A DNA stretch of 64,000 nt, taken from the NCBI GenBank assembly GCA_028713655.1, contig JAQTNW010000003.1, forward strand, positions 38,275 to 102,274, written 5' to 3'. Position numbers and translations under genes: made by a program. The notes below the pieces were generated by a model. The model saw only the letters and a list, made by a program, of their open reading frames with translations. It was not told the DNA's origin and searched no databases. This document shows, in pieces, positions 5,783 to 27,800 of the stretch. Every line of letters starts with the position of its first letter. Position 1 is the first letter of the stretch. The stretch comes from Candidatus Methylacidiphilales bacterium. Lineage in GTDB: Bacteria > Verrucomicrobiota > Verrucomicrobiia > Methylacidiphilales > JAAUTS01.

Positions 5783-6370
5783 ATGAGAAAAACGCCAGGA
5801 ACCATATTCTTTTTTCGGAATCAGAAACAAATCGGTCCGTATCCGGAGAGTGAAATTCGCCGGCTTTGGGCTTACGGCATTTTGAGTTCAGATGACCTTG
5901 TTTGGAGCCAGGGTATGCCGGATTATGTTCCGTTGAATGAGTTTTTCCGTGCACCAAAAGGGGAAATTGTCCCGTATGCACCGCCTGCTTCTGATAGACA
6001 GCAGGAAATGGAACAGCCGACTGCCCGGCCTTTCACTCTTGGTCGATCCCGGATTCAAATCCTGCAAATTGCCACTTGCATCTGTTTTTTGCTCTCGGCC
6101 GTGGCGCTCCTGTCATTTCCAAAATATGTATGGGTTATGATCCTGGCCTATCCCTTTTCACTGGCCTTGACCGTCCTGACTCTTTGGTTCCGCCGCTCGA
6201 CCGTTACTTTGGTGACGTTTATGGCGCACATGGCGCTTCCGCTTGTCGTGGGGGCGTTGTTTATGATGGTTCGGACGCATGAAAAGCTGAAGCAGCCGGT
6301 GCCCTCGTGGTCGATGCCAATGTCACACGTTGTGCCCGGCTCTCTGAATTCGTCTTCCCCCTCCTCTTGA
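5783..6370 (+). CDS. GYF-like (DUF4339-type) domain membrane protein
   Basis: 195 residues. Residues about 8-55 match the GYF_2 pattern common in PVC and Bacteroidetes proteins: FFFRNQKQIGPYPESEIRRL, then WAYGILSSDDLVW and MPDYVPL. A charged linker follows, then three to four hydrophobic helices (about residues 88-170) and a short Ser/Pro-rich tail. A GYF-type domain suggests binding of proline-rich peptides or an assembly role, but the function is unknown. It is followed by a terminator-like hairpin and stands alone. Confidence 0.75.
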   Translation: MRKTPGTIFFFRNQKQIGPYPESEIRRLWAYGILSSDDLVWSQGMPDYVPLNEFFRAPKGEIVPYAPPASDRQQEMEQPTARPFTLGRSRIQILQIATCICFLLSAVALLSFPKYVWVMILAYPFSLALTVLTLWFRRSTVTLVTFMAHMALPLVVGALFMMVRTHEKLKQPVPSWSMPMSHVVPGSLNSSSPSS

Positions 6371-6660: not shown

Positions 6661-8364
6661 ATGAAGCTCTTGAACATTTATGGCATGCCGAAAAAGACCT
6701 GCAAAGCATGGCGTGCTTTCATGCTCATAATGTTTTTTTCGCTGGCGGCAGGGTTCTGTGGGGCTAGGTCAGCGCTTGCGGCAATCGATTCGCCGTCTGT
6801 CGGCACGACAGACGGCAAGGCGCCAACTCCGCAAGGTCCTGTCCGGACGAATGTCCAGCCACAGACGGTACCTCACTTTTTTATTCGCGAATACCATGTC
6901 GAAGGCGCGCGGCATTTGGACAGGACTGAAATTGAGAAAGCCGTTTACCCCTATCTGGGGCCGTATCGGACGGCGGATGACGTGGAAAAGGCGCGGGCCG
7001 CGTTGGAAAAAAGCTATCAAGCCAAAGGATATCAAGTGGCCACGGTGCAGATCGCGCAACAACAACTGCCATCGCGGAACGGAGTGGTGGTGTTGAAAGT
7101 GTCTGAGGGCGAGGTGGAACGGCTTCGGATCAACGGGTCGCGGTATTTTTCCCTTCAGGAAATCAGGGAGGCCGCGCCGTCGCTGAAAGAGGGCAGTGTC
7201 ATTGACTACAACAAGCTGAAACAGGATGTTGTCGCGCTCAATCAATTGCCCGACCGCCGGGTGATCCCGGCGCTGCGGGCGGGTTCGCGCCCCGGCACGA
7301 TGGATGTCGATTTGAATGTGGAAGATAAGATGCCGTTGCACGGGAACATTGACTTGAATAACCGCAACAGCCCGGACACGGCCGAGTTGCGGCTAAGCGG
7401 CGGGCTCAGTTACAGCAATCTCTGGCAGTTGGGGCACACCGTCGGGGCGAGTTTCCAGATAGCGCCGGAGGATGTCAGCCAGGTCAACGTTGTGTCGGCT
7501 TACTACCTGGCGCCTGTTCCTGATGTGACTTGGCTAAAATTGATGCTGCAGGGAACCCGGCAGGACAGCAATGTATCGACCCTCGGCGGCGCAGGCGTGG
7601 CAGGGCGGGGGGATATCGTCGGCCCCCGGGCCATCTTCATTCTTCCCGGTAAAGATTCATTCTACCACTCGCTCACCCTGGGGGTTGATTACAAGCACTA
7701 CACGCAGGATCTGACGATTGGCGGCAGCGTGGCCAGGACGCCTCTTACCTATTACCCCATGAGCGGACTCTACAGCGCGACTTGGACCGGCAAGGGCTGG
7801 CAGACGGATGCCAGCGGGGGGGTGACATTTAATGTGCGCGGCCTCGGCAGCGATCCAGTCGAGTTCAATAACAATCGAACAGGCGCCAACGGCAGTTTTG
7901 TTTATTTCAAGACCGACGTGTCGCACACCCGCGACCTGCCCGCGGGTCTCCAGTTTTTCGGCAGGGTGCAGGGCCAGGCGGCAAGTGTGCCGCTGGTCAG
8001 CAGCGAGCAATTCAACGGCGGCGGCGTGGACACCGCGCGCGGCTACATCGAATCCGAAACACTCGGAGATGACGCCCTTTTTGGCACGCTGGAACTGCGG
8101 AGTCCTTCGCTAGGCGAGTGGTTGGGCAAGGATGTCAAGGACTGGCGGTTTTATGTGTTTAGCGATGCGGGCGTGCTGGAAATCAAAAGCCCGTTGCTTG
8201 AGCAGAAATCGAGTTTCGGCCTGGCCAGCGCCGGGGTGGGCAGCCGGATCAAGCTTTTCGACCACTACAATGGATCGTTTACCCTTGGCAGCCCGCTTGT
8301 GGCGGGGCCGAGGTCGCCTGCGGAAAGCCTGCTGATCATGTTCGAGGTGGGGGCTGAATTTTAA
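6661..8364 (+). CDS. TpsB-type outer-membrane transporter (ShlB/FhaC/HecB family)
   Basis: Outer-membrane pore that exports a TpsA partner in two-partner secretion, an Omp85-superfamily protein. The 567 residues start with a signal peptide (hydrophobic core about 20-37, cleavage near ARSALA). A POTRA_2 domain follows at about 75-155 (FFIREYHVEGARHL). The ShlB barrel domain fills the remainder and contains the loop-6 RGY signature at 460-462 (GGVDTARGYIESE). The C-terminus is FEVGAEF, with the terminal Phe of barrel proteins. An alternative start is the Met at codon 8. It is the first gene of a tightly packed run; its presumed substrate is the giant TpsA gene at 15855-27872, separated by six genes and hicBA. 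Confidence 0.93.
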   Translation: MKLLNIYGMPKKTCKAWRAFMLIMFFSLAAGFCGARSALAAIDSPSVGTTDGKAPTPQGPVRTNVQPQTVPHFFIREYHVEGARHLDRTEIEKAVYPYLGPYRTADDVEKARAALEKSYQAKGYQVATVQIAQQQLPSRNGVVVLKVSEGEVERLRINGSRYFSLQEIREAAPSLKEGSVIDYNKLKQDVVALNQLPDRRVIPALRAGSRPGTMDVDLNVEDKMPLHGNIDLNNRNSPDTAELRLSGGLSYSNLWQLGHTVGASFQIAPEDVSQVNVVSAYYLAPVPDVTWLKLMLQGTRQDSNVSTLGGAGVAGRGDIVGPRAIFILPGKDSFYHSLTLGVDYKHYTQDLTIGGSVARTPLTYYPMSGLYSATWTGKGWQTDASGGVTFNVRGLGSDPVEFNNNRTGANGSFVYFKTDVSHTRDLPAGLQFFGRVQGQAASVPLVSSEQFNGGGVDTARGYIESETLGDDALFGTLELRSPSLGEWLGKDVKDWRFYVFSDAGVLEIKSPLLEQKSSFGLASAGVGSRIKLFDHYNGSFTLGSPLVAGPRSPAESLLIMFEVGAEF

Positions 8365-8365
8365 T

Positions 8366-10219
8366 GTGGAATACGGGAAAAACTTAAATTTAAAACAAGT
8401 GAGCGCAAAATTTTATAAATATTTGATCATTGGCATGTTGGCAGGCATTGGCTGTTCCGCCAACGCGCATGCCTGGTGGAAAAGCGAGTGGACTTTGCGC
8501 AAGAAGTTTACCGTGGATACCGGGGCGTCCGGCGTTTCCATTAATGATCCCATCGGCACCACACCGGTGCTGATCCGCCTGCACGACGGAAATTTTCAAT
8601 TCGCAGGAGCGAAAGAAGACGGCAGCGACATCCGTTTTGTCGCCGAAGACGACAAGACCCCGTTGGTTTATCATATCGAACGGTACGACACCCTCATGGC
8701 GGAAGCGTTTGTCTGGGTAAAGGTGCCCGATGTGAAGCCCGGGGCCAGGACAAGCTTTTGGCTCTACTACGGGAACAACGGCAACAATGTTGCGTCCGTC
8801 AATGATGCCAAAGGCACATACGACCCGGACGCCGTCCTGGTTTATCATTTTGCAGAACACGGCCAACCCCCGGTTGATTTTACGGCGGCGGGCAACAACG
8901 CGGATAAAGCCGGCCAGTCGGTGGACGGCTCCATGATCGGCGGCGGCTTGCGCTTGGATGGCCAGCATCTGGTGAGCATACCTGCTTCATCTTCGCTTGC
9001 CTGGAACGATGGCGCTGTCATGACGTGGTCTGCCTGGATCAAGGCGGCCGCCCTGCAATCGAATGCGGTGCTCTTCAGCCGCAGGGAAGGCGGCAATGCG
9101 TTTGTGATCGGGGTGGACAACGGTATTCCCTATGTGGAAGTGGGAAGCCAGCGGAGCGGGGCGGGCGCGCCAATTGCCGTCAATGTCTGGAAGCACTTGG
9201 CGGTGGTTGCAGACGGACCGAAAATCACACTGTATCTCGACGGTGAGGTTTATGCGACTTTGGATGCGCGCCTGCCCACATTGAGCAGCCCTTCGCTGAT
9301 CGGAGGGATGGTCGTGCCCGGCAGCACGGGTTTCAATGGAGAAATCGATGAGCTGGAAATTTCCAAAACAGCCCGTCCGGCCGGATTCATCAAATTTGCC
9401 GCCGCCAGCCAGAGTGGGGAGCAGGGAAGCAAGCTGCTGGCGTTCACGCAGGATGAGCAGCCGCCGACGGGATGGCTAAGCGGAAGCATGGGCATGATGG
9501 GGACCTTGCTCAAATCGGTGACCATCGATGGCTGGGTGGTGATAGGCTTTCTCTCGATCATGGCGGTTGTCAGTTGGTACGTCATGATCAGCAAATTTAT
9601 CTATCTCAACGGAGTGGAAAAAGGCACCGCTCAATTTATTCATGAGTGGAGCCATGTGGCATCGGACTTGACGCAGCTCGATCACCAGAACGCGGGGAAT
9701 GTCGAAAGCCTGGGAGGCCGCGCCGACCAGAAACTGCAACGTGTGATGCGCCTGGCCCCGTTGTACCGGATTTACCACATCGGTTCGAACGAAATTCGCC
9801 ACCGTCTTGTAGGGTCAGACAACGCATACAAGGGGCTTTCCGTCCGCTCCATTCAAGCCATTCGGGCCAGCCTGGATGGCGGCATGGTGCGCGAGAGCCA
9901 GAACCTCAACGCCCAGATGGTGTTTCTGACCATCACCATCGCGGGCGGGCCTTTTCTGGGACTGCTGGGTACGGTCATCGGCGTGATGATTACCTTTGCC
10001 GAAATCGCGGCCACGGGCGAGGTCAACATCAATGCCATTGCGCCCGGTATTGCGGCGGCGCTGATTGCCACCGTCGCCGGCCTGGTCGTCGCCATCCCTT
10101 CCCTCTTTGGATACAACTATCTGAATTCCCAGATCAAGGATCTGATGGGCACGATGCACGTTTTCATTGACGAGTTCGTGACCAAAATGGCCGAGTTTTA
10201 CCCGCCGGACACCGAGTAA
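8366..10219 (+). CDS. DUF2341-LamG-MotA/TolQ/ExbB fusion protein
   Basis: Predicted inner-membrane proton-channel subunit carrying a large periplasmic N-terminal module. The start is GTG at 8366, one base after the previous stop. Of 617 residues, a signal peptide ends near ANAHA (about 36). A DUF2341-like region covers about 80-140 (VWVKVPDV, FWLYYGN). A LamG/concanavalin-like sandwich covers about 150-350 (MTWSAWIKA, WKHLAVVADG, ITLYLDGEV, GEIDELEIS). From about 375 it is ExbB/TolQ, with one helix before the cytoplasmic loop and two after it (GGPFLGLLGTVIGVM). ExbB normally lacks any extracytoplasmic carbohydrate-binding-type domain. ExbD and TonB genes follow. Confidence 0.92.
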   Translation: MEYGKNLNLKQVSAKFYKYLIIGMLAGIGCSANAHAWWKSEWTLRKKFTVDTGASGVSINDPIGTTPVLIRLHDGNFQFAGAKEDGSDIRFVAEDDKTPLVYHIERYDTLMAEAFVWVKVPDVKPGARTSFWLYYGNNGNNVASVNDAKGTYDPDAVLVYHFAEHGQPPVDFTAAGNNADKAGQSVDGSMIGGGLRLDGQHLVSIPASSSLAWNDGAVMTWSAWIKAAALQSNAVLFSRREGGNAFVIGVDNGIPYVEVGSQRSGAGAPIAVNVWKHLAVVADGPKITLYLDGEVYATLDARLPTLSSPSLIGGMVVPGSTGFNGEIDELEISKTARPAGFIKFAAASQSGEQGSKLLAFTQDEQPPTGWLSGSMGMMGTLLKSVTIDGWVVIGFLSIMAVVSWYVMISKFIYLNGVEKGTAQFIHEWSHVASDLTQLDHQNAGNVESLGGRADQKLQRVMRLAPLYRIYHIGSNEIRHRLVGSDNAYKGLSVRSIQAIRASLDGGMVRESQNLNAQMVFLTITIAGGPFLGLLGTVIGVMITFAEIAATGEVNINAIAPGIAAALIATVAGLVVAIPSLFGYNYLNSQIKDLMGTMHVFIDEFVTKMAEFYPPDTE

Positions 10220-10249: not shown

Positions 10250-10660
10250 ATGAAAGTCGATTCCGAGGGCAAAAGTTACGATGAAATCAACGTCACCCCC
10301 ATGGTGGATTTGTACCTGGTGTTGCTGCTCATTTTCATCATCATGACGACCGCAGGCATCCAGGGGATGAAGGTCAACCTGCCCAAGGCAAGTTCCGCCG
10401 CGAGCACCGACCTGTCCAAACCCAAAACGAAGGCCATCACCGTTTCCAACGAAGGCAAAATCTTTCTGGATACGGTGCCGGTGAGCCTGGCGGAGCTGGA
10501 ACAGCGCCTGAACCAGGCCAAGGCCCAGACGCCCGGCTTTCCCGTGGTGTTGCGCGGGGACAGGGCGACCCAATATCAAAGCATCATGGACGTGCTGGAT
10601 CTGCTCGCGCGGTTGGATATCACGCAAGTCGGTTTGGTGACCAAGCCGCTGACAAAGTGA
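10250..10660 (+). CDS. exbD: ExbD/TolR-family biopolymer transport protein
   Basis: Partner of ExbB in the proton-driven motor that powers TonB. The 136 residues comprise a short cytoplasmic N-terminus, one transmembrane helix (about 17-36) with the conserved membrane aspartate D20 in INVTPMVDLYLVL, and a periplasmic domain ending in the typical IMDVLDLLARLDITQVGLVT segment. It lies 30 bp after the ExbB fusion and 12 bp before tonB, consistent with one operon. Confidence 0.94.
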   Translation: MKVDSEGKSYDEINVTPMVDLYLVLLLIFIIMTTAGIQGMKVNLPKASSAASTDLSKPKTKAITVSNEGKIFLDTVPVSLAELEQRLNQAKAQTPGFPVVLRGDRATQYQSIMDVLDLLARLDITQVGLVTKPLTK

Positions 10661-10672
10661 CCGGATGACAGG

Positions 10673-11401
10673 ATGAACAACATGGAACCCGAAGACGACA
10701 ACGGCGAGAAGATGAACATCGTCCAGAAGTACTGGTGGGCGCTGGGGCTCTGCGCCATTGCCATTATCGCGGGCGGCATCGTGCTGACGGTTCATTTGTT
10801 GTCAGGCATGCATCCCTCCCCGCACAAGCCGATGGAAATACAGACTGTCAGACTGCTGCCGCCACCCCCTCCGCCCATGCCGCCCCCCCCGCCCCCGCCG
10901 CCACCCCAGGCGCCCCCGCCCAAACCGGAAATGGTCGAGCAGGCCCCGGTGGATGACAAGGTGGAAAAGCCCAAGGATGATCCCAAACCGGAGGAGCCCC
11001 CGGCTGCGCTGGCCGTGGATACGGCGGGAAACGGCCCGGGCGACGCGTTTGGCCTGGTTGGCAGGCCGGGCGGCGGTTCCGGAAACGGATCGGGCGGTTC
11101 GGGAGGGATTCAGCGGGGCGGGCGCTGGGGCTGGTATGCCAGCCAGGTGCAGGCCACCGTCGAGCAGGCATTGCAAAAAAACAGCAAGACACGCTCCGCC
11201 AACGCGCGTTCGACCCTGCGCGTCTGGCTCGATGCCAATGCGCGCATTACCCGCGTGACCCTTGACCCGCCCACTGGCGATCCGGCGGTGGACGAAGCCA
11301 TCAAGAATGAGGCGTTGGCCGGAGTCAAGATACCCGAAGCGCCACCGCAGGACATGCCGATGCCGATTGTCATGCGTCTCACCGAGAGGCGGCCCAACTA
11401 A
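10673..11401 (+). CDS. tonB: TonB-family energy transducer
   Basis: 242 residues. There is one N-terminal membrane anchor (about 19-43), then a proline tract (about 62-80) and a Pro/Lys/Glu spacer (to about 115). A Gly/Ser-rich linker at about 135-155 leads into a C-terminal TonB domain at about 155-240 (RGGRWGWYASQVQATVEQAL, DPAVDEAIKNEALAGVKIPE). It is thought to carry energy from ExbBD to an outer-membrane partner. No canonical TonB-dependent receptor (plug plus 22-strand barrel) is present in the window, so the partner is unknown. Alternative start: Met4. Confidence 0.9.
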   Translation: MNNMEPEDDNGEKMNIVQKYWWALGLCAIAIIAGGIVLTVHLLSGMHPSPHKPMEIQTVRLLPPPPPPMPPPPPPPPPQAPPPKPEMVEQAPVDDKVEKPKDDPKPEEPPAALAVDTAGNGPGDAFGLVGRPGGGSGNGSGGSGGIQRGGRWGWYASQVQATVEQALQKNSKTRSANARSTLRVWLDANARITRVTLDPPTGDPAVDEAIKNEALAGVKIPEAPPQDMPMPIVMRLTERRPN

Positions 11402-11413
11402 TTTATTTTTTTC

Positions 11414-13324
11414 ATGAAAAATCATTCTCATTCTCGCCGCAAGACAAACATCTTCCACCAAAGGTTTGTTTTGCTGGCGCTGTCTTGGTGCTGCATTGCC
11501 GCGGTGCTTCCCGTCCGGGCGGCGGACGAAGCCACACTACCTGCTGGAACTTCCTCGGCTGCGGCCTCTGAACCGGAAGCACCGCCATCCGGACCTCCCG
11601 CTGCCGCCCCCGTCAGCACCGCTGCCCCAACGGAAAACGTGGTTGTTAATTTGATCAATCTCATGGTCAAACGCGGTTTGCTGCTGCCGCAGGATGCTGA
11701 AAACCTGGTCGCGCAGGCGGAAACCGAAGCCGCCGCCGCCCGTGAGAAACAGGTGCTGGCGCAGGCGCAGGCCGGTGCGGCCAAACCCGCGCCAGCCGCG
11801 GGACAGCCTGTATCCGAACAATCGGCGTCCGGTTCCGGGGAAGATGTGCGTGTCACGTACGTGCCGGAATTCATCAAAGACGAGATGCGCGACCAGATCA
11901 AACAGGATGTGTTGGCCCAGGCCCGGGAGGAAAATTGGGCCGCGCCGCGCAGTTTCCCGGAATGGGCCAAGCATTTCCGTTTCAATGGCGATGTCCGGAT
12001 GCGTTACGAGGGTGATATGTACCCGCAAGGCAACGATACCACCGGAGGCTTGATTGATTTCAATGCCATCAACAAGGGTTCTCCCTTTGACACAAGCGCA
12101 GTCAGCAACCCCGCCTTTTTCCCCACGTATAATGCCGATCAGGACCGTAACCGCATCCGCCTGCGCGCGCGCTTTGGCATGGAAGTGGATTTGACCAATG
12201 GATTCACGACCGGGCTGCGCGTTGCCACCGGTGAGACCAATTCGCCGACTTCGCAAAACCAGAGCTTTGGTTTGCCCAATGCAGGGGGACAGGGGGGCGA
12301 CTTCAGCAATTACGCCATCTGGCTGGACCGTGGGTTTATCAAATATGAGACGGGTGGCCAGCCGGACAAGAAGCTGGCGGTTAATTTGGGGCGTTTTGAC
12401 AATCCTTTTTTCAGCCCCAGCCAGTTGGTCTGGGACAGTGATCTGGCTTTTGATGGCCTTGCTGTGCAGGGCCGGTACCAGGCCAGCGAATCGCTGGCGC
12501 CTTTTGGAACCATTGGTGGATTCCCCATTTTCAATACGGACTTGAACTTTGCTTCCAACCAGCCGCAGAAATTCAGGAGCGAGGACAAATGGCTGCTTGG
12601 CGCCCAGGGCGGGGTGGAATGGAAGATCAGCAAGGATTTCACCCTGAAAACCGCCGCCGCATTTTACGACTTCGAAAACATTGAAGGCCGGCTTTCCAGC
12701 CCCAAGGCCCCCCTCACGTCGTCTGATGCCTTTGATACGGACGGCACGCGGCCATCCTTCGCACAAAAGGGCAACACCTATATGGCATTGCGCAACATTG
12801 TGCCCGATGCCTACAACAGTTTCGGAACCCAGAACATGTTTCAATATTACGGCCTCGCCACTCCCTTCAAGGATTTGGTTCTCAGCTCGAGGCTGGATTA
12901 CAGCGGATTCGATCCGCTTCACGTGTGGCTTTCGGGCGAGTATGTGAAAAATGTCGCCTTTGACAGGGCTCGTCTGAACGCTTTTGCCCAAAACAACCTG
13001 AACGGAGGACCCGGAGGATCTTATGCCGGTGGTGACAGCGGATGGACAGCCGCTTTAAACTTCGGCAGCGTGGCTCTCCAAAAACGATGGGATTGGAATG
13101 CCAACTTTGGCTACAAACGCGTCGAATCTGACGCTGTGGTGGACGGCTTCACCGATTCCGATTTTGGCGGGGGCGGCACCAACCTCCAGGGGTACTCTGT
13201 CGGCGGAAATGTGATGATTTCACCCCATATCACCGCCGGACTCAACTGGATGAGCGCCACCAGCGTCGCCGGGCCCACCTTCGGCGAGGACGTTTTTCAA
13301 TTCGACATCAACGCAAAATTCTAA
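11414..13324 (+). CDS. Putative outer-membrane porin with helical N-terminal region
   Basis: 636 residues: signal peptide (cleavage near PVRA-AD, about 36), an Ala/Pro-rich linker, and a helical segment about 70-150 (VVNLINLMVKRGLLL, QDAENLVAQAETEAAAARE). A long beta-rich region with alternating aromatic strands then runs to the C-terminus FDINAKF. This layout matches the large 'putative porin' family (Porin_5-like) of Verrucomicrobiota and Bacteroidetes. It lies in the run from TpsB to the isomerase, 12 bp after tonB. It could be the TonB-linked outer-membrane component or an independent porin. Confidence 0.8.
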   Translation: MKNHSHSRRKTNIFHQRFVLLALSWCCIAAVLPVRAADEATLPAGTSSAAASEPEAPPSGPPAAAPVSTAAPTENVVVNLINLMVKRGLLLPQDAENLVAQAETEAAAAREKQVLAQAQAGAAKPAPAAGQPVSEQSASGSGEDVRVTYVPEFIKDEMRDQIKQDVLAQAREENWAAPRSFPEWAKHFRFNGDVRMRYEGDMYPQGNDTTGGLIDFNAINKGSPFDTSAVSNPAFFPTYNADQDRNRIRLRARFGMEVDLTNGFTTGLRVATGETNSPTSQNQSFGLPNAGGQGGDFSNYAIWLDRGFIKYETGGQPDKKLAVNLGRFDNPFFSPSQLVWDSDLAFDGLAVQGRYQASESLAPFGTIGGFPIFNTDLNFASNQPQKFRSEDKWLLGAQGGVEWKISKDFTLKTAAAFYDFENIEGRLSSPKAPLTSSDAFDTDGTRPSFAQKGNTYMALRNIVPDAYNSFGTQNMFQYYGLATPFKDLVLSSRLDYSGFDPLHVWLSGEYVKNVAFDRARLNAFAQNNLNGGPGGSYAGGDSGWTAALNFGSVALQKRWDWNANFGYKRVESDAVVDGFTDSDFGGGGTNLQGYSVGGNVMISPHITAGLNWMSATSVAGPTFGEDVFQFDINAKF

Positions 13325-13331
13325 CATAACT

Positions 13332-14024
13332 ATGAAACCAAAATATCATCTATTCTTCGCAGCCTTTCTGTGCCTGTGCTCGGGATTCGCCGCAACATCC
13401 CTCCGCGGTGCCGATGCCTCAGCCGCGTCCGGCAATGAAGCGCGCCTGCGCGAAGCCCTGCGCGCCGCGACGCTGCAGGTGCGCGACGTACAGAACCAGG
13501 TCGTGACGCTCCAGGCAGCCCAGGCCCAGATCGAACAGGACAAGGCCGGTCTGAAAACCCAGGTGGATGGCCTGAACAAGCAGATCGACCAGTTGGTCTC
13601 GGATGGCAAGGCCGCCAGGGAGACATCCGAAAAAGCCATCGCCGCCCTTAACAGCAAGGCGGACGGGCAGGACAAGCAGATCGGCAAATACAAGGAAGTC
13701 CTGGAAAAATGGAAGTCGGCCTACAACGAAGCGGTGACGCTTGCCAAAGCCAGGGAGATGGAACGTGCCAAGCTGGAGATGGACAATGCGGTGTTGCAGC
13801 GCCAGGTCGTTGCCGCCGAAACCAGAAACGCCGAGCTGTTCAAAACCGGCAGTGAAATTCTCACGCGCTACGAAAAATTCAGCCTGGGCGACGCTCTCAG
13901 CGCCAAGGAGCCGTTTGTCGGTACCATGCAGGTCAAACTTCAGAATTTGGTGCAGGGTTATGAGGACAAACTGGTTGCCCAAAGAATCACGGATTCAGAT
14001 CAAAAAAATACGGAGACCAAATGA
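13332..14024 (+). CDS. Periplasmic coiled-coil protein of unknown function
   Basis: 230 residues with a signal peptide (core about 7-22) and a long, heptad-rich helical region from about 35 to 185 (QVVTLQAAQAQIEQDKAG, LNKQIDQLVSDGKAA). The tail is less charged. No enzyme family is recognised. It starts 7 bp after the porin gene and overlaps the isomerase gene by 4 bp (ATGA), so translation is coupled. A periplasmic scaffold or chaperone role next to the secretion genes is inference from context. Confidence 0.8.
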   Translation: MKPKYHLFFAAFLCLCSGFAATSLRGADASAASGNEARLREALRAATLQVRDVQNQVVTLQAAQAQIEQDKAGLKTQVDGLNKQIDQLVSDGKAARETSEKAIAALNSKADGQDKQIGKYKEVLEKWKSAYNEAVTLAKAREMERAKLEMDNAVLQRQVVAAETRNAELFKTGSEILTRYEKFSLGDALSAKEPFVGTMQVKLQNLVQGYEDKLVAQRITDSDQKNTETK

Positions 14025-14977
14025 AACATCGCATTACCCCCTGTTATTCGCCATTTATGGCTTCACCTTGGCGAACTGCAGCCTTTCTTTCCTGCCTTCT
14101 ATTGGTTTCCGGGACTCTTGTCGCCAGGGCCACGAATGATGCGGTGTCGGCCCAGATTGGGGAACAGAGCCTTAGCATTGAAGAAATCCGGATGGCTCTG
14201 GGAGCCTTGGATCCTGCGCAGCGCGTTGCCGCGATGCAAAGTCCCGCCGCGCTGGCCCAGGCTGTTCAAGCGCTTTTGTTGCAAAGAATCGTTCTCAAAG
14301 AGGCGCTTGCAAAAAAATGGGACCAGGAGCCGGCAGTGCAGGAAAGGCTCGAACTCGTCCGCAAAAAAGCCATCGCCGAAGGTTATCTCTTTTCCATTAC
14401 CAGTCCTCCTGACAATTATCCTGATGACGAAGAATTGAAAAGCGCCTACGAAGCGAACAAGGCCTCATACCTGATGCCCCGCCAACTGCAACTTGCCCAA
14501 ATTTTTATTGCTCTTCCGGAGGATGCCGCGCAATTCGAGGTGGAGACTGCGCAAAACAGACTGGATCTCGTCCAGAAATCCCTCAACCAGACGGGAGCGG
14601 ATTTTGCCGCGCTTGCGCGGGGGCAAAGCGATGACAAACAGAGTGGCGGAAATGGCGGCAATCTCGGATGGCTTCCCGAAAGCATGATTCAGCCTGACAT
14701 CCTCAAGCAGGCTATTGCACTTTCGAAGGGCGCTGTATCCGCCCCGATCCGCATCAAAGATGGTTGGCATATCATCAAAGTGCTTGATACTAAGGAAGCC
14801 TATACCGCTTCGTATGAAGATATGCATGATCGATTGATTCAGCAACTTCGCTCCGAGAAAGCTCAGGCAAATCGCAATACCTATTTCACCAAGCTGTTGG
14901 GACAAAAGCAGATATCCATCAATGGCCCCGAACTACTTAAAGCCCTTGGGAAAAATCCAGAAAAAACACCTCAGTAA
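14021..14977 (+). CDS. Parvulin-type peptidyl-prolyl isomerase (SurA/PrsA-like)
   Basis: 318 residues: an N-terminal signal peptide whose hydrophobic core (AAFLSCLLLVSGTL) lies at about 19-33, a helical SurA/PrsA-like N-terminal region about 45-145, and a rotamase domain about 148-262 (QLQLAQIFIALP, GADFAALARGQSDD, GGNLGWLPESM, IRIKDGWHIIKVLD). It is expected to act in the periplasm on unfolded outer-membrane or secreted proteins. As the last gene of the TpsB-ExbBD-TonB-porin run it is a plausible dedicated chaperone for the barrel proteins or the TpsA passenger; that specificity is inferred. Confidence 0.9.
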   Translation: MKHRITPCYSPFMASPWRTAAFLSCLLLVSGTLVARATNDAVSAQIGEQSLSIEEIRMALGALDPAQRVAAMQSPAALAQAVQALLLQRIVLKEALAKKWDQEPAVQERLELVRKKAIAEGYLFSITSPPDNYPDDEELKSAYEANKASYLMPRQLQLAQIFIALPEDAAQFEVETAQNRLDLVQKSLNQTGADFAALARGQSDDKQSGGNGGNLGWLPESMIQPDILKQAIALSKGAVSAPIRIKDGWHIIKVLDTKEAYTASYEDMHDRLIQQLRSEKAQANRNTYFTKLLGQKQISINGPELLKALGKNPEKTPQ

Positions 14978-15524: not shown

Positions 15525-15606
15525 CACAGATATTAGGCTACCGCATCCCCTTTTCCTGATCAAGAAGCTTCTCGTCCTCCGCACTGTCCGTGATTTTTAC
15601 TGCTTA

Positions 15607-15698
15607 TAACCCGGATGTCACTGCACCTCTGTTCTTGCCACGCTTTGGAACTGTACACTTCGCGGGGTTTTTCAGAAGCGGGCAAGGCATCCCGGTTA
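15607..15698 (+). repeat. R1 element, copy 2 (92 bp)
   Basis: Left end TAACCCGGATGT; right end GCATCCCGGTTA, a slightly degraded inverted repeat. The interior CCACGCTTTGG and CGGGGTTTTTCAGAAGCGGG match copy 1 at 6448-6540 in the same orientation. It lies 157 bp before the preferred start of the TpsA gene. Shared sequence continues past the right end (CAATTTCGTCACACAA at 15703-15718 versus CAATTTAGTAACACAA at 6554-6569). Confidence 0.8.
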
Positions 15699-15854
15699 GT
15701 CGCAATTTCGTCACACAATCGCTTCCTAAATATAACCATTCACATCTTGAAAGCCGTCACTACTCACCCAAACTTGTTTCTGGGGCGGAGTTCTGCGGCG
15801 GCGGTGCGCTGGATGCTGCCTCCGGCCCATAATCCATCCTTGCGTGGAACAACA

Positions 15855-18800
15855 ATGATCTTATATCAGACAGGTTGCCGGGCTGATAAGCGGGGCATTT
15901 TTCAATGCAACCCGCTCTGCGCCCCCCTGTCTGTTGTTTCCGTGGCACTGCCACTGCTATTATTCCTGTTGGCGCCTCCAACCCTTCAGGCCGGTGATGC
16001 GCTGTCCCACCAACAGGCTGTGGCAGCATTAAGGTCGGGCGGAGGCGGTGGATCGGGGACAGGAGGATCGGGCTCCGGCCCCTCTTCGGCATCGGATCCC
16101 GGCCAGGCTGCTGCCCAGGCCATGGCGCAGGCTTCGGCCCGGACGAACGATGCGCTGGCCCAAACGGCCCAGGCTTTGCAGGTCATGCGGGCGGCTCAAA
16201 TCGCAGCCCGAACGCAGGCGATCTCGGGGCCCAACAACCTTGGAACCAACCCAAACAACCCGGCGATACAACTGCCCAATGTGCCGGACGGTCTGGCCGG
16301 GGGTGCGCTGGTGCCCGACTCCGGATTGTCACAACCCGGCGTGGCCAATCCGGTGGTCACTTGGGTGGGGGCCAAAACTCCGGTGCAGACGGCGAACGGC
16401 GGCCAGACCCAGGTAACCATTGAGCAAACCCAGCAACAGGCGCTGTTGAATTGGCAAACATTTAATATCGGAAAAAATACGCTGCTTGATTTTGACCAGA
16501 GCGCCGGCGGCGCCAATGTAAGCCAATGGGTGGCGTTCAACAAAATCAACGATCCCTCGCTGGCGCCCTCGCAGATACTGGGTGCCATCCAGGCGTTGGG
16601 CCAGGTCTATGTCATCAACCAGAACGGCATCATTTTCGGGCCTCATTCCCAGGTGGATGTGCATACCCTGGTGGCTTCATCCCTGCCGATCAATGACAAC
16701 CTGGTCTCAAAAGGGCTGCTCAACAGCGCGGACTTGCAGTTCCTGTTTTCAACACAGCCGCTTGCAGCCGGAAAACTGGATAGCTCCGGCTTTACCCCGG
16801 TTTTTATCGACCCGCTTTTTACGGTGAGCGGCGCAGCGAATACCCATACGCTGACCCAAAAGCTGTCATCGAGTAATGCTCTGACAGTCAACTATTATCC
16901 CTCCGGCCCCACTCCAAAAAATCTTGTTTCCGGCACGGATTACACCATGAGCCTGGACGGGAGTGGGAATACTGTCCTGGCCTTTACACCCGCCGGGTTG
17001 GGGAAAATTGCTGGCGCTTCGGTCGGCGTTTCGTACGTCCCTGCCTCTGTCCATACCGGGGATGTAACGGTCCAGCAAGGGGCCATTCTCAATGGCACCC
17101 CGATTGTCAACGAGCCCGTCATCCTCGGTAATGCCGCAGCCACGCAAAAATTGTCCGACGTTGTGGCTGCCGGAACGGCGCCGACGGTTGCTTATACTCC
17201 GTCCGGCGGTGTTGCCACTCCTCTTAGCCTGGGTGTTGACTATACGTTGAGCGTCGATACCGATGGCAAAACCATTGTCATGCTCACCCAAAATGGCTTG
17301 GCTAAAGTTGCCGGTGCTCCAGCCAGCGTGGCCTATACTCCCGTGACCAACGGAGGCAGGATCGCCTTGGTCGGAGCAAATGTGAATAATGCCGGTACGA
17401 TATCAACGCCCGACGGCCAGACCATCCTCGCCGCCGGATTGCAGGTCGGAATGGCCGCACATTCCACCAATGATCCGCATTTGCGTGGTTTGGATGTTTA
17501 TGTTGGCGCCGCTGATCAATTCACTGGCGTTGCGACCAATACCGGTGTCATCGACGCTCCCAGGGGGAATGTCACTGTTGCAGGCAGGCAAGTCAATCAG
17601 ATGGGCGGGATTGACAGCTCAACTTCGGTGGCGCTAAACGGGAGTGTTAATCTCATGGCAGATTACAGCGCGGCCATCAACCCCCAATACGATCCCGTCA
17701 GCAATCCGGATGTTCTTCCCTTCATTCCGCAATCCATCGACGGCACCGTGACTTTGGGGGCGGGCAGTGTGACCCGCATCCTGCCTGAAGTGGAGAGTGC
17801 CGATACCGTGGTTGGCACCGAGCTTGCCTTGCGTTCCCAGGTGAAAATGGAAGGGGCTGTTATTCATCTGGCCCCGGATTCCCAACTCCTGGCGCCCAAT
17901 GCCGAGGTAACTTTGAAAGCCGGCGTCTGGCTTCCGAACAACGGTGGTTCTTTTATTTATAGCGACGGCCAGGTTGCCTTGGACTCGGGTGCGGTGATCA
18001 ACGTGGCCGGCTCTGAAGATGTCAACGCCTCGGTCACGGAGAATATTATTTCCCTGCAATTGACCGGCACCGAACTGGCCAACTCCCCATTGCAGCGCAA
18101 CGGCATGCTTCGCGGAAAAAAAATCCAGGTCGATATCACGCAATATGGCACTGACAGCAACGGCAACACCTGGATTGGCACTCAGATCGCGGACGTATCC
18201 GGTTATGCCAATTTGATCCAACGTTCGGTTGGTGAGCTGACAACCGCCGGTGGTTCGGTGACAATCAATGCGGGTGGTTCGTTGGCCATGCAGGCCGGCT
18301 CGAACATTGATGTCTCCGGCGGTTGGACCAATTACCAAGGGGCATACATCCAGACGACCAAGCTTTTGGCCGGCGGGAATATCATCGACATTTCCAAGGC
18401 AACCCCGGATCGCGTGTATGATGGGATCTATGACGGTTTTACGCAAAGTTCCGCCAAATGGGGCACGAGCCAGACCTACATAAACCCGCTTTTGGTTGGC
18501 GCCACATACAGGAATGGCTATGTCCAGGGTGGTGGTGGTGGTTCGCTTGCAGTTACCGCCCCCGCCATGACCCTGAAGGGCGGCTTGTATGGGAACACCG
18601 TGGCGGGACAACAGCAACGCATGCCGGATGCGAAGGTCAAGGCGACATTTTCCAGCACCTCGGTTTTGCCGGCCATGCGATCCATCCTGAGCGTGCCCGG
18701 AGCGGGTTCTTTGTCCCTGTCTTTTTTAAAACAGAATCCGGACCCATCCAACCCGGTTTTTTATTCTCCCACGCCACCTCATATAGCCTTTACATTCGGG

Positions 18801-21800
18801 CCCGCCTTGAATCCGGCAGATCCTATGGAACTCGATTTGTCGCCGCACCTTATTGGAGTTAACGGTTTTGGGAATCTCAGCATTGGCAACAGTGATGGCA
18901 ACATTACGGTGCCGTTCGGCGTTGTCCTGGCGGACTCGCCTCTTGGTTCGATTACAATGACAGGAGCTAATATCGATATTCAGGGAAAAATAAGCGCTCC
19001 GGACGGAAATTTGAACTATACCGTTTACGACTTCACCCCCAACCCGGAATTCCAAGTCCTGCAACAGCCGCCTCCCACGCCTTCTCCTGATTCCTCGCGC
19101 GGGCATTTTATTCTGGGTTCGGCAGCCTCCCTGAGTACGGCAGGCCTCATTGTGGATGATCGCGCGGGTTCATCGCTTTCGCCCCTGGCCACGGCTGGTG
19201 GAACAGTGTCCATCAAAAGCTACAGCGCCGATCTGGCCGTCGGCAGCAAGATCGATGCGTCCAGCGGAGTGGCCCTGAGCGGGACCAGCAAAGAGGCTTT
19301 TGGGGATGGAGGCAGCATTACCATTAACGCGGGCCAGGATCCGGGAACACCGGCGCTCGTCGGCGGGATTCTTAACTTGAATGCCAGTCTTAGAGGTTAT
19401 GCCGGTATCGGGAAAAAGGGCGCGGCGCTCAACATCCTGGCCCCCTTGATCCAAATAGGCGGCGCCACGACCGACCCGGATACCTTGCTGCTTTCGTCGG
19501 ACTTTTTCAGCCAGGGTGGATTCAGCAGTTTCACGTTGACCGGCCTTGGAAAAGCCGATGGACACGGCGGATATTTTCCAGCAGTTTATATTGCCCCCGG
19601 CACTTCAATCACTCCTGTAGCCCAAAATTCCGTGATTGATCCGAACGCAGCCGGTATCGCGCTGACTTCCATACTGGCGCCCCAGGGGTTGCGTACCGGG
19701 GTCAATTTGAGCTTCGTTGCAGCGGGTGTGCAAGATTCCAACCAACCCCTTGGTTTGGCGGTTCGGGGTGATTTTTTGATGGGCGAGGGCGCTGTCATCC
19801 AAACCGATCCGCAATCCGATCCCACCCGGGGTGTTTCCATCAGCGGCTATACGGCAGCCGTGCTCGGATCCATTATCGCACCGGGCGGAACCATCAGCGT
19901 CAGTGGAAAAAGTTCCAACAGTTTTTCCATAAATACGTCACAGGCCTTGGTCAGTGTTTATCTCGGCCCGGACAGTGTTTTATCCACAGCCGGGACCACG
20001 TTGCTGGTGCCGGACACCAGCGGCCACGGCTATCGTACCGGTTCTGTTTTGAACGGCGGCGCCATTAAAATCAGCGGCAACATCATGGCCGAAGCCGGGG
20101 CCACCCTGGATGTTTCCGGCGCGAGCGATACGCTTTATCTGCCTGAATCGTACTCTAACGCTTCGGGCGGAGTATCGGCTCTCGTCCCGACTTTGATCGA
20201 CAGCAACGGCGGATCCATCACTCTGGCTGGCATTCAGGAATTGTTTACGGATGCGATGCTAAAGGGCCATGCAGGTGGCTCCGCGGCACAGGGAGGAAAT
20301 CTGTCCATTTCATCCGGATTTATAAAAACCGCCGGCATTGCCATCCCGTTGGATCCCAACTTATGGGTGGCCCAAAGCGGACTCACGATTCCGAAGCCTT
20401 TCGCCCCCGGCTCGACAGGAATCGGCCAATTGGTAACAGACACTGGAGGGAATGCCCTTCCGTTCCTCGGTCATTTTACGGCTGACAGCTTTTATTCCGG
20501 TGGATTTGACTCGCTCGCTCTTGGAGGTACGGTTCAATTTAGTGGACCCGTAACGATTACTGCCAAACGCAGCATCAATGTCGCCAGTGGAGGTTTCCTG
20601 TTGGGCGATTCTGCGATCAACTTAAGCGCACCCTATGTCGCCATAGGAACCTCATTTCACGCCCCATACTCGCCCTTGTCACCCCCGGCCAACATTTTCA
20701 GCGATGCGTTGGGTCGGCCATTTTACACGCCGCCGGCCTATGGCGCAGGCGATCTTACGGTTTCAGCCGGCCTTATCGACATCGGCAATCTTTCGCTGCA
20801 GGGAATAGGCAAGGCGAATTTTTATGCTGACAACGGCGATATCCGCGGCGGCGGTACGCTGGACGTCGCCGGGGACATCACCATGCGCGCTGGACAAGTT
20901 TACACCCCGACGGCTGTTAGTTTCACCATTGCAGCCTACGATCACGGCGCCACTCCCGGCAGTGTGACGTTTGAAGCGTCCGGCAGCCGGCAACTTCCAA
21001 TATCAGCCGGCGGAATCCTGAACATTTACGCTTCCACTATCAACCAGGGCGGTGTCTTGCGTGCGCCTTTTGGCTCCATTAACCTGGGTTGGAATGGGCT
21101 GGGATCGACACCGGTGGATTTGATCACCGGATCGGGCGTTACGGATTCAAACGGAAATTCGGTTGCTACCCTGAATATTAAATCGACGCAGACACTGGCC
21201 TTGTCGAGTGGAAGTGTGACTTCGGTTTCGGGAGTCGATCCCGTAACGGGGCAGGGCTTGACCAGCCCCTATGGCACGAATCTCAATGGCGCGCAGTGGA
21301 TCGATCCCAGCGGAACGGATATCACCACTGTCGGCCCGCCTGTCAAATCGGTCAACATCTCGGCGCAGCAAGTCACGGATGGATCCGGTTCGTCGATTGA
21401 CATCAGCGGCGGCGGGGATCTGTATGCGTATCGCTGGGTTTCCGGTGTCGGAGGCACCCGGGATATTCTCGCCTCGTCAACCGCGTATGCTGTTATTCCG
21501 GGTTATCAGGCGGATTATGCTCCGATTGACCAAACCGTGGACAGCAATGGGGCGCATCCGTATCAGAATACTTCACTCAAGGTTGGTGACCAAATTTATC
21601 TCGGTGCCGGTAGTGGTCTTCCCTCAGGGGTTTACACCCTGCTGCCCGCCCGCTACGCGTTGTTGCCCGGCGCGTTTCTCGTGACTCCGAAGAGCAGCGT
21701 GGTTCCCAACGGCACAACGGTCATGCCCGACAGTTCCAGCCTCGTTTCCGGTTATCGTTTCAACAATCTGAGCCCTCTGCCGACAGGCCGGCAGCCCTTG

Positions 21801-24800
21801 TTTGCATCTTTTGAAGTCGCGCCACAGTCCGTACTCCGCGCCCGGGCCGAATATGACCTTTCCCTCGCCAACGGTGATGTTTTCATCAACAACGGCATCG
21901 CTTCGCTTCCGAACAGTTTTTTTGTTCAAAGTGCGCAGACGAATAATCTGGCCGTGCCTCGTTTGCCCCTGGATTCGGGGCAATTGGTGCTCGCCGCGAC
22001 CCAGGCGATGGCCATTCACGGCGCCGTCGATTCGCAGGCTCCGGCGGGCGGACGTGGCGGGCTTGTCGATATCAACAGCCCGTCCGATATTCTCATTGCC
22101 GGTCCCGGCGCCAGCGGAGTTCCAGGGGAGCTGGTACTCGATTCGTCCGGCCTGACAAACTTCGGCGCCGGAAGTTTGCTGATTGGCGGTGTCCGCCAGA
22201 TCGGCGCCAATGGTACGACGATCACAGTCACTACCCACAATATCACAGTGGACAATGCCGGAGCGCCGTTGAAAGGACCGGATATAATCCTGGCCGCCAA
22301 CCAAAGCCTTGCCTTGGCCCAGAATGCCGATATCGAACAGATTGGCACAGCCTCCGGTCTTGATAATATATTGCTCATCGGCAATTCAACGTCGGGCAAG
22401 GGTGACGGCGCCCTGCTCCGTGTCAGCAGCGATGTTTCGACGCAATTGGTTCGCTCCAGCGTGGATTCCTCCGCCGTGCCGCTCATGACAATTGGGCAGG
22501 GAGCAAGGATTTCAGGCGCCAGCGTTACGCTGGATTCGACTTCCAGGACAAGCTTTGATTCAAGCGCTGTCTTGAGCGGCCAGACTATCAACCTCGGCAG
22601 CGGCCAGACCAGCCTTGTGCTGGATAACAGCCAGCCGGTGACTTCCGGCCTGGTACTTTCCAACGCGGCCCTGCAGAATCTTCAAAGTTCCGCGCAGGCC
22701 CTGTCCTTATTGAGCTATTCCACGATTGATATTTATGGGACAGGCCAGATCGGTACGCCAGGATTTAACAGCTTGGTACTGCACACTGCGGCAATCCGGG
22801 GTTATAACAACGGGGGTGGGACAGTGAGCTTTATGGCTCAGAACATCCAACTGGACAACTCCCCGGGCAGGACAGTCGCCGCTCCGGCGCCGGTGCTGGC
22901 CGGCACCCTCGAATTTGATGCCTCGACCCTGCGACTCGGTGTCGGCCAGTTGGGAGTTGATCTTTATGCAAATCTGAATCTGAATGCCAGTGGTGGCGTG
23001 CTCGTGGAAGGGAACGGCGGGCTGGCCGCGCAGGGGAATATCCATATCATAACTCCGGAGATTACCGGCGCCGCAGCGGCTGCTCAGTCCATAACCGCCG
23101 GGGGATCCCTGCTCATTGATAAATCCGGCGTTTCAACCATTGACAGCCTCGGAGGGTTGGGTGCCAGCCTGGTTTTGCAGGGGGCCAATGTCTCAGTGAA
23201 CACCGATGTGACTTTGAAAAGCGGTTTGCTCAAGCTTCATGCTTTGAATGGCGGAGTTGTTGTGGGAGGTATTCTGGATGCAGGCGGCAGCGCCAAGGTG
23301 TTCTTTGACCAAATAAAGTACAGTAACGGCGGCCAGATTATTTTGGAGTCGGACACAGGTTCCGTGACCTTGGCTTTGAGCGGTAGCGTGTCGGTTGCAG
23401 CCCAATCGGCTGCTGGCGATGCTGGAACGATTTCCATCAGCGCCCCGGCGGGTACGTTTGTGCATGATGGAGCTTTGTCGGGGCAGGCGGGCGCAGGCGG
23501 GCAGGGCGGCAGTTTCTCCCTGGATGTGGCAACGATGGATCCTTCAACCGTTCTGGGCGGCAATGACCTGGCTTCACTCGAGCTGGCATTGGCTTCGAAT
23601 GGTTTTGACCAATCCCAGTCGATCCGTGTCCGGGGTGGCGGCTCCAATGGTGTCAACAATGATGTCTATGTCGCTGCCGGAACTACAGCCAGGGTGCACA
23701 CATTCAACCTTTCGACTGACCAGGGTTCGATCACAGTTGGCGGCAAAATTGATGCCAGTGGCGCTACCGGTGGCGCCGTTAATTTGACGGCGCAAGGCAG
23801 TGTGGTGCTGGAGAGTGGGGCAATCCTGACCGTGAAAGGGGACACCTTCAACGATGCCGGCAAAGGTGGCGCGGTCACTCTTGAGGCCGGTTCGGAAACC
23901 AACGGCAGCTTCAGCAATCAAGCCTTGGGCGCCGGCCCTCAAATCCATATTCAGAGTGGTTCCGCCATTGACCTTTCCGTTGCTCAAAATGCAACTCCAG
24001 CAGTCACAAGCGCCAACGCTGCAATAGGCAAATTCAGCGGAACGCTGAATTTGCGGGCGCCGCAGACGGCAGGCAATACGGATCTTCAGATTAAAGAAAT
24101 TGATGGAACCATTCTGGGCGCCTCCAGCATCCTGGTGGAAGGCTATCAAGTCTATGCGCCCGCTGTCGGCTCGATTAACAACACAGTGGAATCTGCTGTT
24201 CAAAATAACGGAAACACCTTCGGCGGAAATGCTGCGGCAATCACCAACCGCTTGTTTGCCGGCAATGCCGGATTGAAACCACTGGCTGTCATTGCTTCCG
24301 GAGCGGAAATCATCAATACCAACGGCAATCTGACGTTGTCCATCGATTGGGACCTCCACACTTTCCGTTTTGGTCCAAACAGCGCACCTGGTGTTTTGAC
24401 CCTGCGCGCTTCGGGGAACCTGGTTTTTAACGGCACCTTGAGTGACGGCTTTAACGGTTCCACCTACAACGCCACGCTCCTCGCCGCCAATCCTGCGCTT
24501 CCGCTTAACGCCCAGTCCTGGTCCTATCGCCTGGCCGCAGGTGCTGATTTTAGCGCCGCTGATTTTCACCAGGTACAGTCTTTGGCAAGCCTCGCTGCTA
24601 ATAGCGGATCACTTAAACTCGGCATAAATGGCACAGGCTCGCCTTCGGTTGGAAACACCGGAACAAAGGCCCTGACCAGCGATGCGGTCAAAGGCCATTA
24701 TCAGGTCATCCGCACCGGCAGTGGCGATATTGACATCTCCGTTGGCCGCGATGTTCAATTGCTGAACCCATTTGCCACGATCTACACCGCTGGCGCCAAA

Positions 24801-27800
24801 GTCACGGATCCAACCCTGGGCGGGACATTTGTGACGCCTCCCTCGGCCAACATCAGTTCAAGCTCCGAAGGCAACCTGGGGGCCACCCAGGAAACCCCGA
24901 CCTATCCCGCGCAATACAGCATGGCGGGCGGCAATGTGACCATCGCGGCCCAGGGAGACATCAAACATCAAACTCTTTTCCAGGGGCAACTGATCGATGA
25001 TTCCGAAAAACAACTCCCGGATAATTGGCTCTACCGGCGTGGTTATATGGATCCCACGACAGGCCAATTCGGCATCGCCAAATTTGGCGACGTGGCCTCG
25101 ACCACATGGTGGGTGGATTTCAGCAATTTCTTCGAGGGAGTGGGCGCGCTCGGCGGCGGCAATGTTACTCTGGTTGCCGGGGGCGATGTCCGCAATGTTG
25201 ATGCTGTGATCCCCACCAACGCCCGCATGCCTGTTGGAAAACCGAATGCGGGCAACATGGTTGAATTGGGTGGGGGGGATTTGAGCGTGACGGCAGGAAA
25301 CAACATCAGCGGCGGCGTTTATTATGTCGAGCGCGGCCAGGGTACGCTCAGCGTCGGCAACACCATTACCACCAACAGCACGCGTTCCCCGTCCGTGCCG
25401 CAGTATCTCAGTTTGAATTCCACAGTTTTGCCCTCCCAAACGTGGCTGCCCACGACCTTGTACCTTGGCAAGGGCGGCTTTGACGTGACGGCCCGCGGAA
25501 ACGTGCTGCTCGGCCCCATCGTTAACGCCTTTATGCTGCCCCAGGGCATCAGTAATACATTTTATGACAAAACCTATTTCTCGACCTATGCGGCTAATGA
25601 CACGGTGAATGTTTCCTCCCTGGGAGGCAATGTTACATTCAGGAATGATGTCACGTTGCCCGGCAACGAGCAAACCACACCCGTCCTGATCGCTTGGCTT
25701 GAAAATGTGAATCTCTTGAGATCGTTGCCTGCCACGGTTTCATTTTATGAACCCTGGCTCAGATTGGTCGAAACCGATGTCGATCCCTATTTCGATACTT
25801 TTGCAGCACTGGCCCCACCCACCCTGCAGGCAACCGCATTTTCGGGCGATATTAATCTGGGCGGCTCGATAACCCTGTCGCCTTCGCCTGGCGGTACTGT
25901 GGATTTTGCGGCCACAGGCTCGATCAACGGCCTGCAATCCAACGGCGTTACTAATTTCTCTGCCACTTTTACTCCGATCACTTCCTGGGGTTCCTCCCAG
26001 ATCAATCTTTCCGATGCCGATCCCAACTCCGTACCCGGCGTGGCTTCGCCGTCTGCTGTTCAAGCGGTTCCCGGCGTTGGAATCTCCACCAATGTCGCAC
26101 GGCAAACCAACTCCCAACTGCTTGGCTCCCTGGGCGCCATGTTCCAGGAATCCGGATCCACAGAAGGTACGCATGCCGTCTTGCAGGCCAAACAGGTTCT
26201 TCATACGCCTGGTTTGCTCCACCAGAATGATCCCAATCCGCTTCGTCTCTATGCGCTGGGCGGGGATATCTCGGGTCTGACTCTCTTTTCCGGCAAATTT
26301 TCCAGGATTTACGCGGGCAATGACATCACGGACACTTCCTTTTATATCCAAAACAACAATGCGGCGGATATTAGCATCGTCAGCGCGGGCCGTGACATCA
26401 TTCCCTACGATGCGAATTCGGCGTTGCTCCAGGCAGCCAGCCAGCCCGGAAATGTCACCAATAGCGCGCTCAATAATTTCAACACCAGTCCTTATCAAGC
26501 CGGTGATATCCAGATCAGCGGACCGGGCACACTCGAAGTCCTGGCCGGACGAAATTTGAATCTTGGCATCGGCGCCGGCAATTCCGACGGCACCGGCGTG
26601 GGCATCACCAGCATCGGAAACACCCGCAATCCCTATCTTTCCTTTGGCGGGGCTGATATTATCGCTGGGGCGGGTATCGGCGCGCCCGCGGGGGACCTGG
26701 CATCACCCTCATCCAAATTTGATTTTTCCGCTTTCATTGCTGCGATTCTCAACCCGGCCACAGCCGGCGCCCAGGCCACACGCTACTTGCCTGACTTGCC
26801 CGCCCTCGCCCTGCCTGCGGATACTTTCAGCCAGCAAGCTCCGGCGACTGGTTATTTAAATAATCTGGGAGTTCTCTTGGGCCTTTCCGGCAAGCCTACC
26901 GGCCAGCAGGTCTTGGCTGCGTTCAACCTGCAACCGCCAAGCCAGCAAACCTCTCTTGCATGGAATGCTTTTCAACAATTGCCTGCTTCCCAGCAGGATG
27001 TGCTTGCCCTTGGCATCTTTTACCTGGCTCTGCGCGATGCGGGCCGCGACCACAACAATCCTTCCAGCCCGGGCTTCCAAAGCTTCGCATCTGCCAACGC
27101 CGCGATTGCCGCCCTTTTCCCGGGAAATACCTGGAAAGGGGATATCTTGACCCAGGGCCGCGATATCCGGACCACCAGCGGCGGCAACATCAGCCTCTTC
27201 GCGCCCGGAGGCGGACTGACCCTGGCCTCCACCGCCATTGGCAATCCGCTGACGCCACCCGGCATTGTCACCGAAGACGGCGGCAGCATAGCCATCTTCA
27301 CCCGCGGCAGCGTGAATTTGGGAATCTCCCGTATTTTCACGCTGCGGGGTGGTAATGAAATCATCTGGTCCAGCAACGGGGACATTGCCGCCGGCGCTTC
27401 GTCCCGCACTGTGCAGTCGGCCCCGCCCACCCGCGTCCTGATCGATCCGCAAAGCGGCGATGTGCAGACCGACCTTGCCGGATTGGCCACCGGCGGCGGT
27501 ATTGGTGTCTTGAATACGGTTCCCGGAGTCAAACCGGGCGACGTCGATTTGGTTGCTCCGAACGGAACCATTAATGCCGGCGATGCAGGCATCCGGGTGT
27601 CAGGCAATCTGAACCTTGCCGCCGTTCAGGTCCTCAATGCGGGGAATATCCAGGTGGGCGGCCAGTCCGCCGGGGTTCCCGTGGCGGCGCCTGGCGTGAG
27701 TCTGGGCTCTTTGACCTCCGCCTCCAACACCACCGCCGGGGCTGCCAGTGCCGCAGCCGATGTCGCCAAACAGGCGCAAAATGAGGCTGCTGGTGCTCAA

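Follow-up and report, generated by a model that had tools for sequence, protein, structure and literature searches.

Gene content of the operon

The window, i.e., the whole stretch of 64,000 nucleotides analysed here, contains an operon that encodes, in this order, the transporter TpsB, a fused ExbB, ExbD, TonB, Porin_5, a coiled-coil protein, a peptidyl-prolyl isomerase (PPIase), and a giant haemagglutinin-like exoprotein (Table 1). The genes are tightly packed: the fusion gene starts with GTG 1 bp past the stop of TpsB, and the coiled-coil and PPIase genes overlap by 4 bp. The pair formed by a TpsB with POTRA and ShlB barrel and an exoprotein with an N-terminal TPS domain (PF05860, E 7.8e-18; TIGR01901, E 1.5e-16) is that of two-partner secretion (TPS, type Vb). 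The true start of the exoprotein is likely near position 15855 (MILYQ..., 4005 aa), and its C-terminal region contains DUF3739 (residues 3912–4023, E 2.2e-31).

Table 1. Genes and motif of the operon, with positions in the window and supporting evidence.
Feature	Position	Strand	Evidence
TpsB outer-membrane transporter (POTRA_2 + ShlB/FhaC barrel)	6661..8364	+	Pfam POTRA_2 E 2.9e-14, ShlB E 2.2e-13
DUF2341-LamG-ExbB fusion	8366..10219	+	single frame, Pfam, hydropathy, AlphaFold2, Foldseek
ExbD/TolR, conserved Asp in NVTPMVDLYLVLLLIF	10250..10660	+	Pfam ExbD E 1.1e-28
TonB: TM, Pro-rich spacer, TonB_2 C-terminal domain	10673..11401	+	TonB_2 26.3 bits vs cut-off 22
Porin_5, putative outer-membrane porin	11414..13324	+	Pfam Porin_5 E 7e-207
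Predicted periplasmic coiled-coil protein	13332..14024	+	signal-peptide-like N-terminus; position kept across loci
PpiC/SurA-type PPIase	14021..14977	+	Rotamase E 2.4e-20
Giant TPS exoprotein	15615..27872	+	TPS domain, TIGR01901, DUF3739
TonB-box-like tail motif ITVEVIGYG, residues 4071-4079	27825..27851	+	tail alignment, PWM

The third Ton gene encodes a TonB by its membrane anchor, spacer, and C-terminal domain, and its TM helix lacks the conserved His (alignment of 22). We found no TonB-dependent receptor within the operon. Alignment of Porin_5 revealed a conserved N-terminal periplasmic helix (NVTINLINRLVxRGLL). The segment of TpsB between the signal peptide and POTRA showed no conserved TonB box among 20 homologues, and TpsB was rejected as the ligand of TonB on this ground. 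The PPIase, likely a chaperone of the exoprotein, is missing or displaced in some loci. The same genome contains eight other matches to MotA_ExbB, so we regard the motor of the operon as a dedicated one rather than the general one. A GYF_2-domain membrane protein (5783-6370) is encoded directly upstream of the operon and a PEP-CTERM protein (30902-31792) downstream of the exoprotein. Between the PPIase and exoprotein genes lies a 96-aa antisense-oriented ORF (15294-15584, minus strand), which looks HicB-like by eye and has no Pfam or NCBIfam match.

The core operon recurs in Verrucomicrobiota and in Alpha-, Beta-, and Gammaproteobacteria, including Klebsiella plasmids. By published gene order, its counterpart is the Pseudomonas aeruginosa series pdtA, phdA, pdtB, exbB2, exbD2, tonB4, PA0696 (porin), PA0697, PA0698 (YbjN), and PA0699 (PPIase). 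According to the passages that describe it, this Pdt operon is under the control of the VreAIR/PUMA3 system (VreI regulon) and its Ton genes are 'still uncharacterized' (PMC2729926, PMC7035377). Gene content and order in the recurring loci (TpsA/TpsB/ExbB/ExbD/TonB/porin/unknown/PPIase) match this published order. The window copy differs in having the exoprotein at the 3' end, in lacking YbjN, and in having no recognised adjoining vreAIR. Those same passages report neither the fusion nor the tail motif described below. The large Klebsiella plasmid L034 has the Pdt gene order together with a verified DUF2341-LamG-ExbB. A second large plasmid of Klebsiella, L057, also carries the whole operon, with TpsB and PPIase split into pieces, which suggests decay.

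The DUF2341-LamG-ExbB fusion

The fusion gene encodes 617 residues in one frame without internal stops. After a signal-peptide-like N-terminus, the protein matches DUF2341 (PF10102, residues 85–162, E 4.7e-16), Laminin_G_3 (PF13385, residues 203–339, E 2.3e-18), and MotA_ExbB (PF01618, residues 494–597, E 1.4e-26), all above the Pfam cut-offs, which bears out the domain order proposed in the initial annotation. In the AlphaFold2 model (mean pLDDT 84), as in the hydropathy profile, three TM helices follow the beta-sandwich region. Foldseek searches with the model matched the C-terminal half to TolQ/ExbB (TolQ TMt 0.78–0.83) and the N-terminal half to ConA-like folds (AbnA domain 4 and agrin LG). 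The channel part is nearer to TolQ than to the ExbB of Escherichia coli. The protein has the MotA_ExbB domain, the three TM helices and, by homology, the N-out orientation of the ExbB/TolQ family, joined to the ConA-like beta-sandwich of LamG/ConA-like lectins. ExbB proteins are N-out; because of this topology and of the signal-peptide-like N-terminus, the sandwich can be placed in the periplasm, as previously suggested.

The pore Thr pair (T148/T181 in E. coli ExbB; Thr536 and Thr569 in the fusion) is invariant among 31 aligned fusion proteins. The position of E. coli Glu176 (564 in the fusion) is Ala or Gly in all 31. We rejected the idea that this loss is peculiar to the fusion clade: the other ExbBs of the same genome have E, Q, or G at that position, and one of them thus shares the Gly. 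Given the Ala/Gly at the Glu176 equivalent and the TM helix of TonB without the conserved His, the motor may be atypical, even if the pore Thr residues and the Asp of ExbD are kept.

Full-length relatives of the fusion (38–62% identity) were identified in 31 other genome contigs, mostly from Verrucomicrobiota and some from Proteobacteria, and in 11 proteobacterial plasmids; the E. coli genomes searched gave no near copy. The DUF2341-LamG part is present in all the 52 distinct ExbB genes that adjoin ExbD and TonB in operons of the same type. These relatives and the single open frame led us to reject a frameshift or an assembly error joining two genes, and they equally dispose of the concern that the fusion might have no homologue. 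The fusion is a real and widespread hallmark of the TPS-Ton operon. In many Verrucomicrobiota genomes, DUF2341 itself occurs for the most part in other large proteins, with up to 20 copies per genome, and fusions with ExbB make up only a small share of its occurrences. Generic ion transporter A-subunits with an N-terminal DUF2341 have the same architecture as the fusion and were described as having an appendage of unknown function (mBio 2025, PMC12505986); the part of that work dealing with them gives no operon, TPS link, or role. The fusion and the operon are therefore not new in themselves; the new element is the tail motif of the exoprotein.

Linkage between DUF3739 and the fused ExbB

Exoproteins with DUF3739 are closely linked to the fused motor. 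All seven genomes with DUF3739 in the Verrucomicrobiota sample have an ExbB of the fusion clade: in six it is full length and on the same contig, and in the other (G216) it is a fragment at a contig end. Among the 18 genomes with DUF3739 in the gammaproteobacterial sample, the fused ExbB is on the same contig in 16 and adjacent in 13; in another three (G383, G496, and G257) it lies within about 25 kb of the exoprotein. It is a contig-edge fragment in G348 and was not found in G447, whose draft is fragmented. Control TPS loci without DUF3739 had no ExbB, ExbD, or TonB nearby (0/20), a significant difference from the 13/18 loci with an adjacent fused ExbB (p = 1.6e-6). A literature search on DUF3739 and VVVVGYG returned no papers.

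This linkage bears on what the lectin-like part of the motor might recognise. The initial annotation proposed that it senses or binds either glycan or the exoprotein while the motor energises TonB. The link with the exoprotein is supported (16/18 in Gammaproteobacteria, 6/7 in Verrucomicrobiota), whereas for glycan the ConA-like fold is the sole basis. The nearest solved non-motor fold is indeed a sugar-binding arabinanase domain (AbnA domain 4), which would fit a LamG that binds or senses glycan in a motor powering TonB-dependent uptake. However, ConA-like folds are also common protein-protein modules, the LamG domain is periplasmic and would not be expected to meet intact polysaccharide from outside, and the genetic linkage is to TPS exoproteins. 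Glycan sensing during uptake finds no support in an operon that lacks both a TonB-dependent receptor and any glycan-uptake gene, and we consider such a role very unlikely.

A conserved tail motif and its possible role

The exoproteins carry, after DUF3739 and a low-complexity linker, a short motif with the consensus P-S-x-[ILF]-[TS]-V-E-V-[LI]-G-[YF]-G. It is present in 32 of the 38 distinct DUF3739 C-termini, in which its flanks are poorly conserved (about 1 bit, compared with 2–4 bits for the motif). The motif is absent from the rest of the same exoprotein frames (0 in 30,452 aa) and from the tails of control exoproteins without DUF3739 (0/20). At the DNA level, a scan of 231 Verrucomicrobiota genomes gave 11 occurrences of the pattern VEVxGYG, six of them in exoprotein tails, and four of the reversed pattern. 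The prediction for the exoprotein tail, made from a shallow alignment, had the low confidence that disorder would give, and the C-terminal part bearing the motif is probably disordered. An HMM of the tail, too short as a query, gave only chance matches in PDB and NCBIfam.

The motif resembles the TonB box of Bacteroidota SusC-type receptors: their EVVV(V/I)GYG is close to the TVEV(I/L)GYG of the tails. The two differ in location: the SusC box precedes the plug of a receptor barrel, whereas the secreted exoprotein bears its motif C-terminally. The SusC box (VDEVVV) is essential in Bt1763 (PMC7782687). We built a position weight matrix (PWM), learned without supervision, from the region upstream of the plug in 14 SusC-type receptors (EVVV[VI]GYG), the boxes having been picked by the sequence downstream of them. 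When this matrix was run over the window exoprotein (about 4,080 positions), the tail came out first (15.8, the next scoring 2.8). Across loci, 26 of 38 tails score better than their shuffles (p<0.05), 12 are not significant, and none of the 20 controls is. The gammaproteobacterial tails (LGFG) score weakly, and the similarity spans about eight residues only. A PWM made from 50 proteobacterial and verrucomicrobial TonB boxes (VVTATRT type) did not detect the tail, which is thus rejected as a canonical proteobacterial TonB box; only the SusC-type PWM matches it.

The resemblance of the tail to the handle of TonB suggests that the motor may act on the secreted protein itself. Because the nearest candidate ligand of TonB sits on the exoprotein, the earlier proposal that the motor energises TonB is doubtful if it is taken in the sense usual for import. 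By homology with ExbB/TolQ, five copies of the fusion would form the stator channel around ExbD and would display a ring of DUF2341-LamG on the periplasmic face. The TonB of the operon could bind the exoprotein at its TonB-box-like peptide, close to the C-terminus, which in the two-partner pathway leaves the periplasm last. The force of the motor would then land on the secreted protein, its C-terminus being held as a periplasmic anchor, and might pull or release the surface filament, resulting in retention/release or in mechanical tensioning. The LamG ring and Porin_5 may help to dock the complex under TpsB. This scheme—a TPS operon with a dedicated Ton motor whose TonB binds the exoprotein tail, anchors it, and pulls or releases it, with docking by the LamG ring—has in our estimate an even chance of being right. 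Its stronger form, in which a secreted adhesin carries a TonB box and a motor whose stator bears a lectin-fold crown acts directly on its own exported substrate in an energised, force-bearing type Vb system of at least two phyla, is more tentative and falls somewhat short of that.

The binding of the tail by TonB is favoured by the spread of the operon over phyla, the linkage with DUF3739, the conservation of the tail motif, the SusC-type PWM, the essential SusC box of Bt1763, a fusion of the tail with STN and the STN-TonB_2 proteins beside orphan exoproteins (see below), and the lack of a box in TpsB. Against it stand the negative proteobacterial PWM, the weak gammaproteobacterial tails, the short stretch of similarity, and the absence of both the TM His and the Glu176 equivalent. 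Moreover, TonB pulls inwards, opposite to secretion. Type V secretion is also considered to run without an energy source (PMC5422565). When tpsA, tpsB, and tonB4 were mutated in P. aeruginosa, the mutants showed no phenotype in zebrafish, an assay that does not test secretion (PMC2729926).

The motor might instead energise an outer-membrane partner. TonB would then act on Porin_5 or TpsB, either opening the pore or powering secretion, and the tail would be a peptide for sorting or for chaperone binding. Porin_5 accompanies the motor constantly and is conserved in its N-terminal periplasmic segment, and the tail could be read by the PPIase or by the LamG ring. In Myxococcus, TonB acts on the outer-membrane transporter Oar in protein secretion (PMC6434023). 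The Oar/PopC system resembles the operon in that a Ton motor serves protein secretion, but its TonB box is on a 22-strand transporter and not on the secreted protein, and it has no TpsB. The segment of Porin_5 looks amphipathic-helical rather than like an extended TonB box when judged by eye, the N-terminus of TpsB lacks a conserved box, and the SusC box is matched by the exoprotein tail and not by the segments of TpsB and Porin_5. We regard action on an outer-membrane partner as rather unlikely.

The STN signalling domain is a periplasmic module of TonB-dependent transducers. In the alphaproteobacterium Sphingomonas sp. ERG5 (L104:6901-19209), one exoprotein has an STN (E 1.6e-10) at its extreme C-terminus, directly after the tail motif. 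VreA-like STN proteins are also encoded beside orphan DUF3739 exoproteins or near the operon (L098:12717-13415, L100:7127-7891, L033:9145-9876), and a TonB_2 domain was detected in those of L098 and L100. Such STN/TonB-CTD proteins could, with TonB, read the tail and report the status of secretion to an ECF sigma/anti-sigma pair, as in cell-surface signalling. The fusion of STN to one tail, the STN-TonB_2 proteins adjoining orphan exoproteins, and the VreAIR-type genes present with the loci of P. aeruginosa and Methylosinus all fit this explanation. However, FecR, STN, or sigma genes were neither recognised beside the operon of the window nor annotated in the Klebsiella locus, so signalling is not a universal function. 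In the relevant part of one study, the activation of VreI was reported to be independent of VreA (PMC7035377). Signalling is in our view improbable as the role of the tail.

The TonB-box-like motif of the exoprotein might also serve import into neighbouring cells, the co-encoded Ton genes being incidental. TonB-dependent colicins reportedly have TonB pentapeptides (Schramm 1987, in the reference list of PMC11658791), but here the cognate Ton genes have been inherited along with the exoprotein in different phyla, and the exoprotein C-terminal regions examined consist of DUF3739 and a low-complexity tail only. This makes a colicin-like function the least probable of the explanations considered, and extremely unlikely.

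If TonB does act on the exoprotein tail, this conserved TPS operon, which has a Ton motor of its own and an exoprotein with a TonB-box-like tag, would be an exception to energy-free type V secretion. The uncharacterized ExbB2/ExbD2/TonB4 of P. aeruginosa would gain a concrete and testable role, and the DUF2341 appendage of ExbB-like motors a candidate function. A partial parallel exists in Salmonella, where SiiAB is co-encoded with the secretion system of SiiE, a giant adhesin secreted by the type I pathway. SiiAB is counted among the MotAB/ExbBD-like proton-channel motors (PMC12204202). The likeness is that of a proton channel co-encoded with the secretion system of a giant adhesin; the Salmonella system differs in being of type I rather than type Vb and in having neither TonB nor the LamG fusion.
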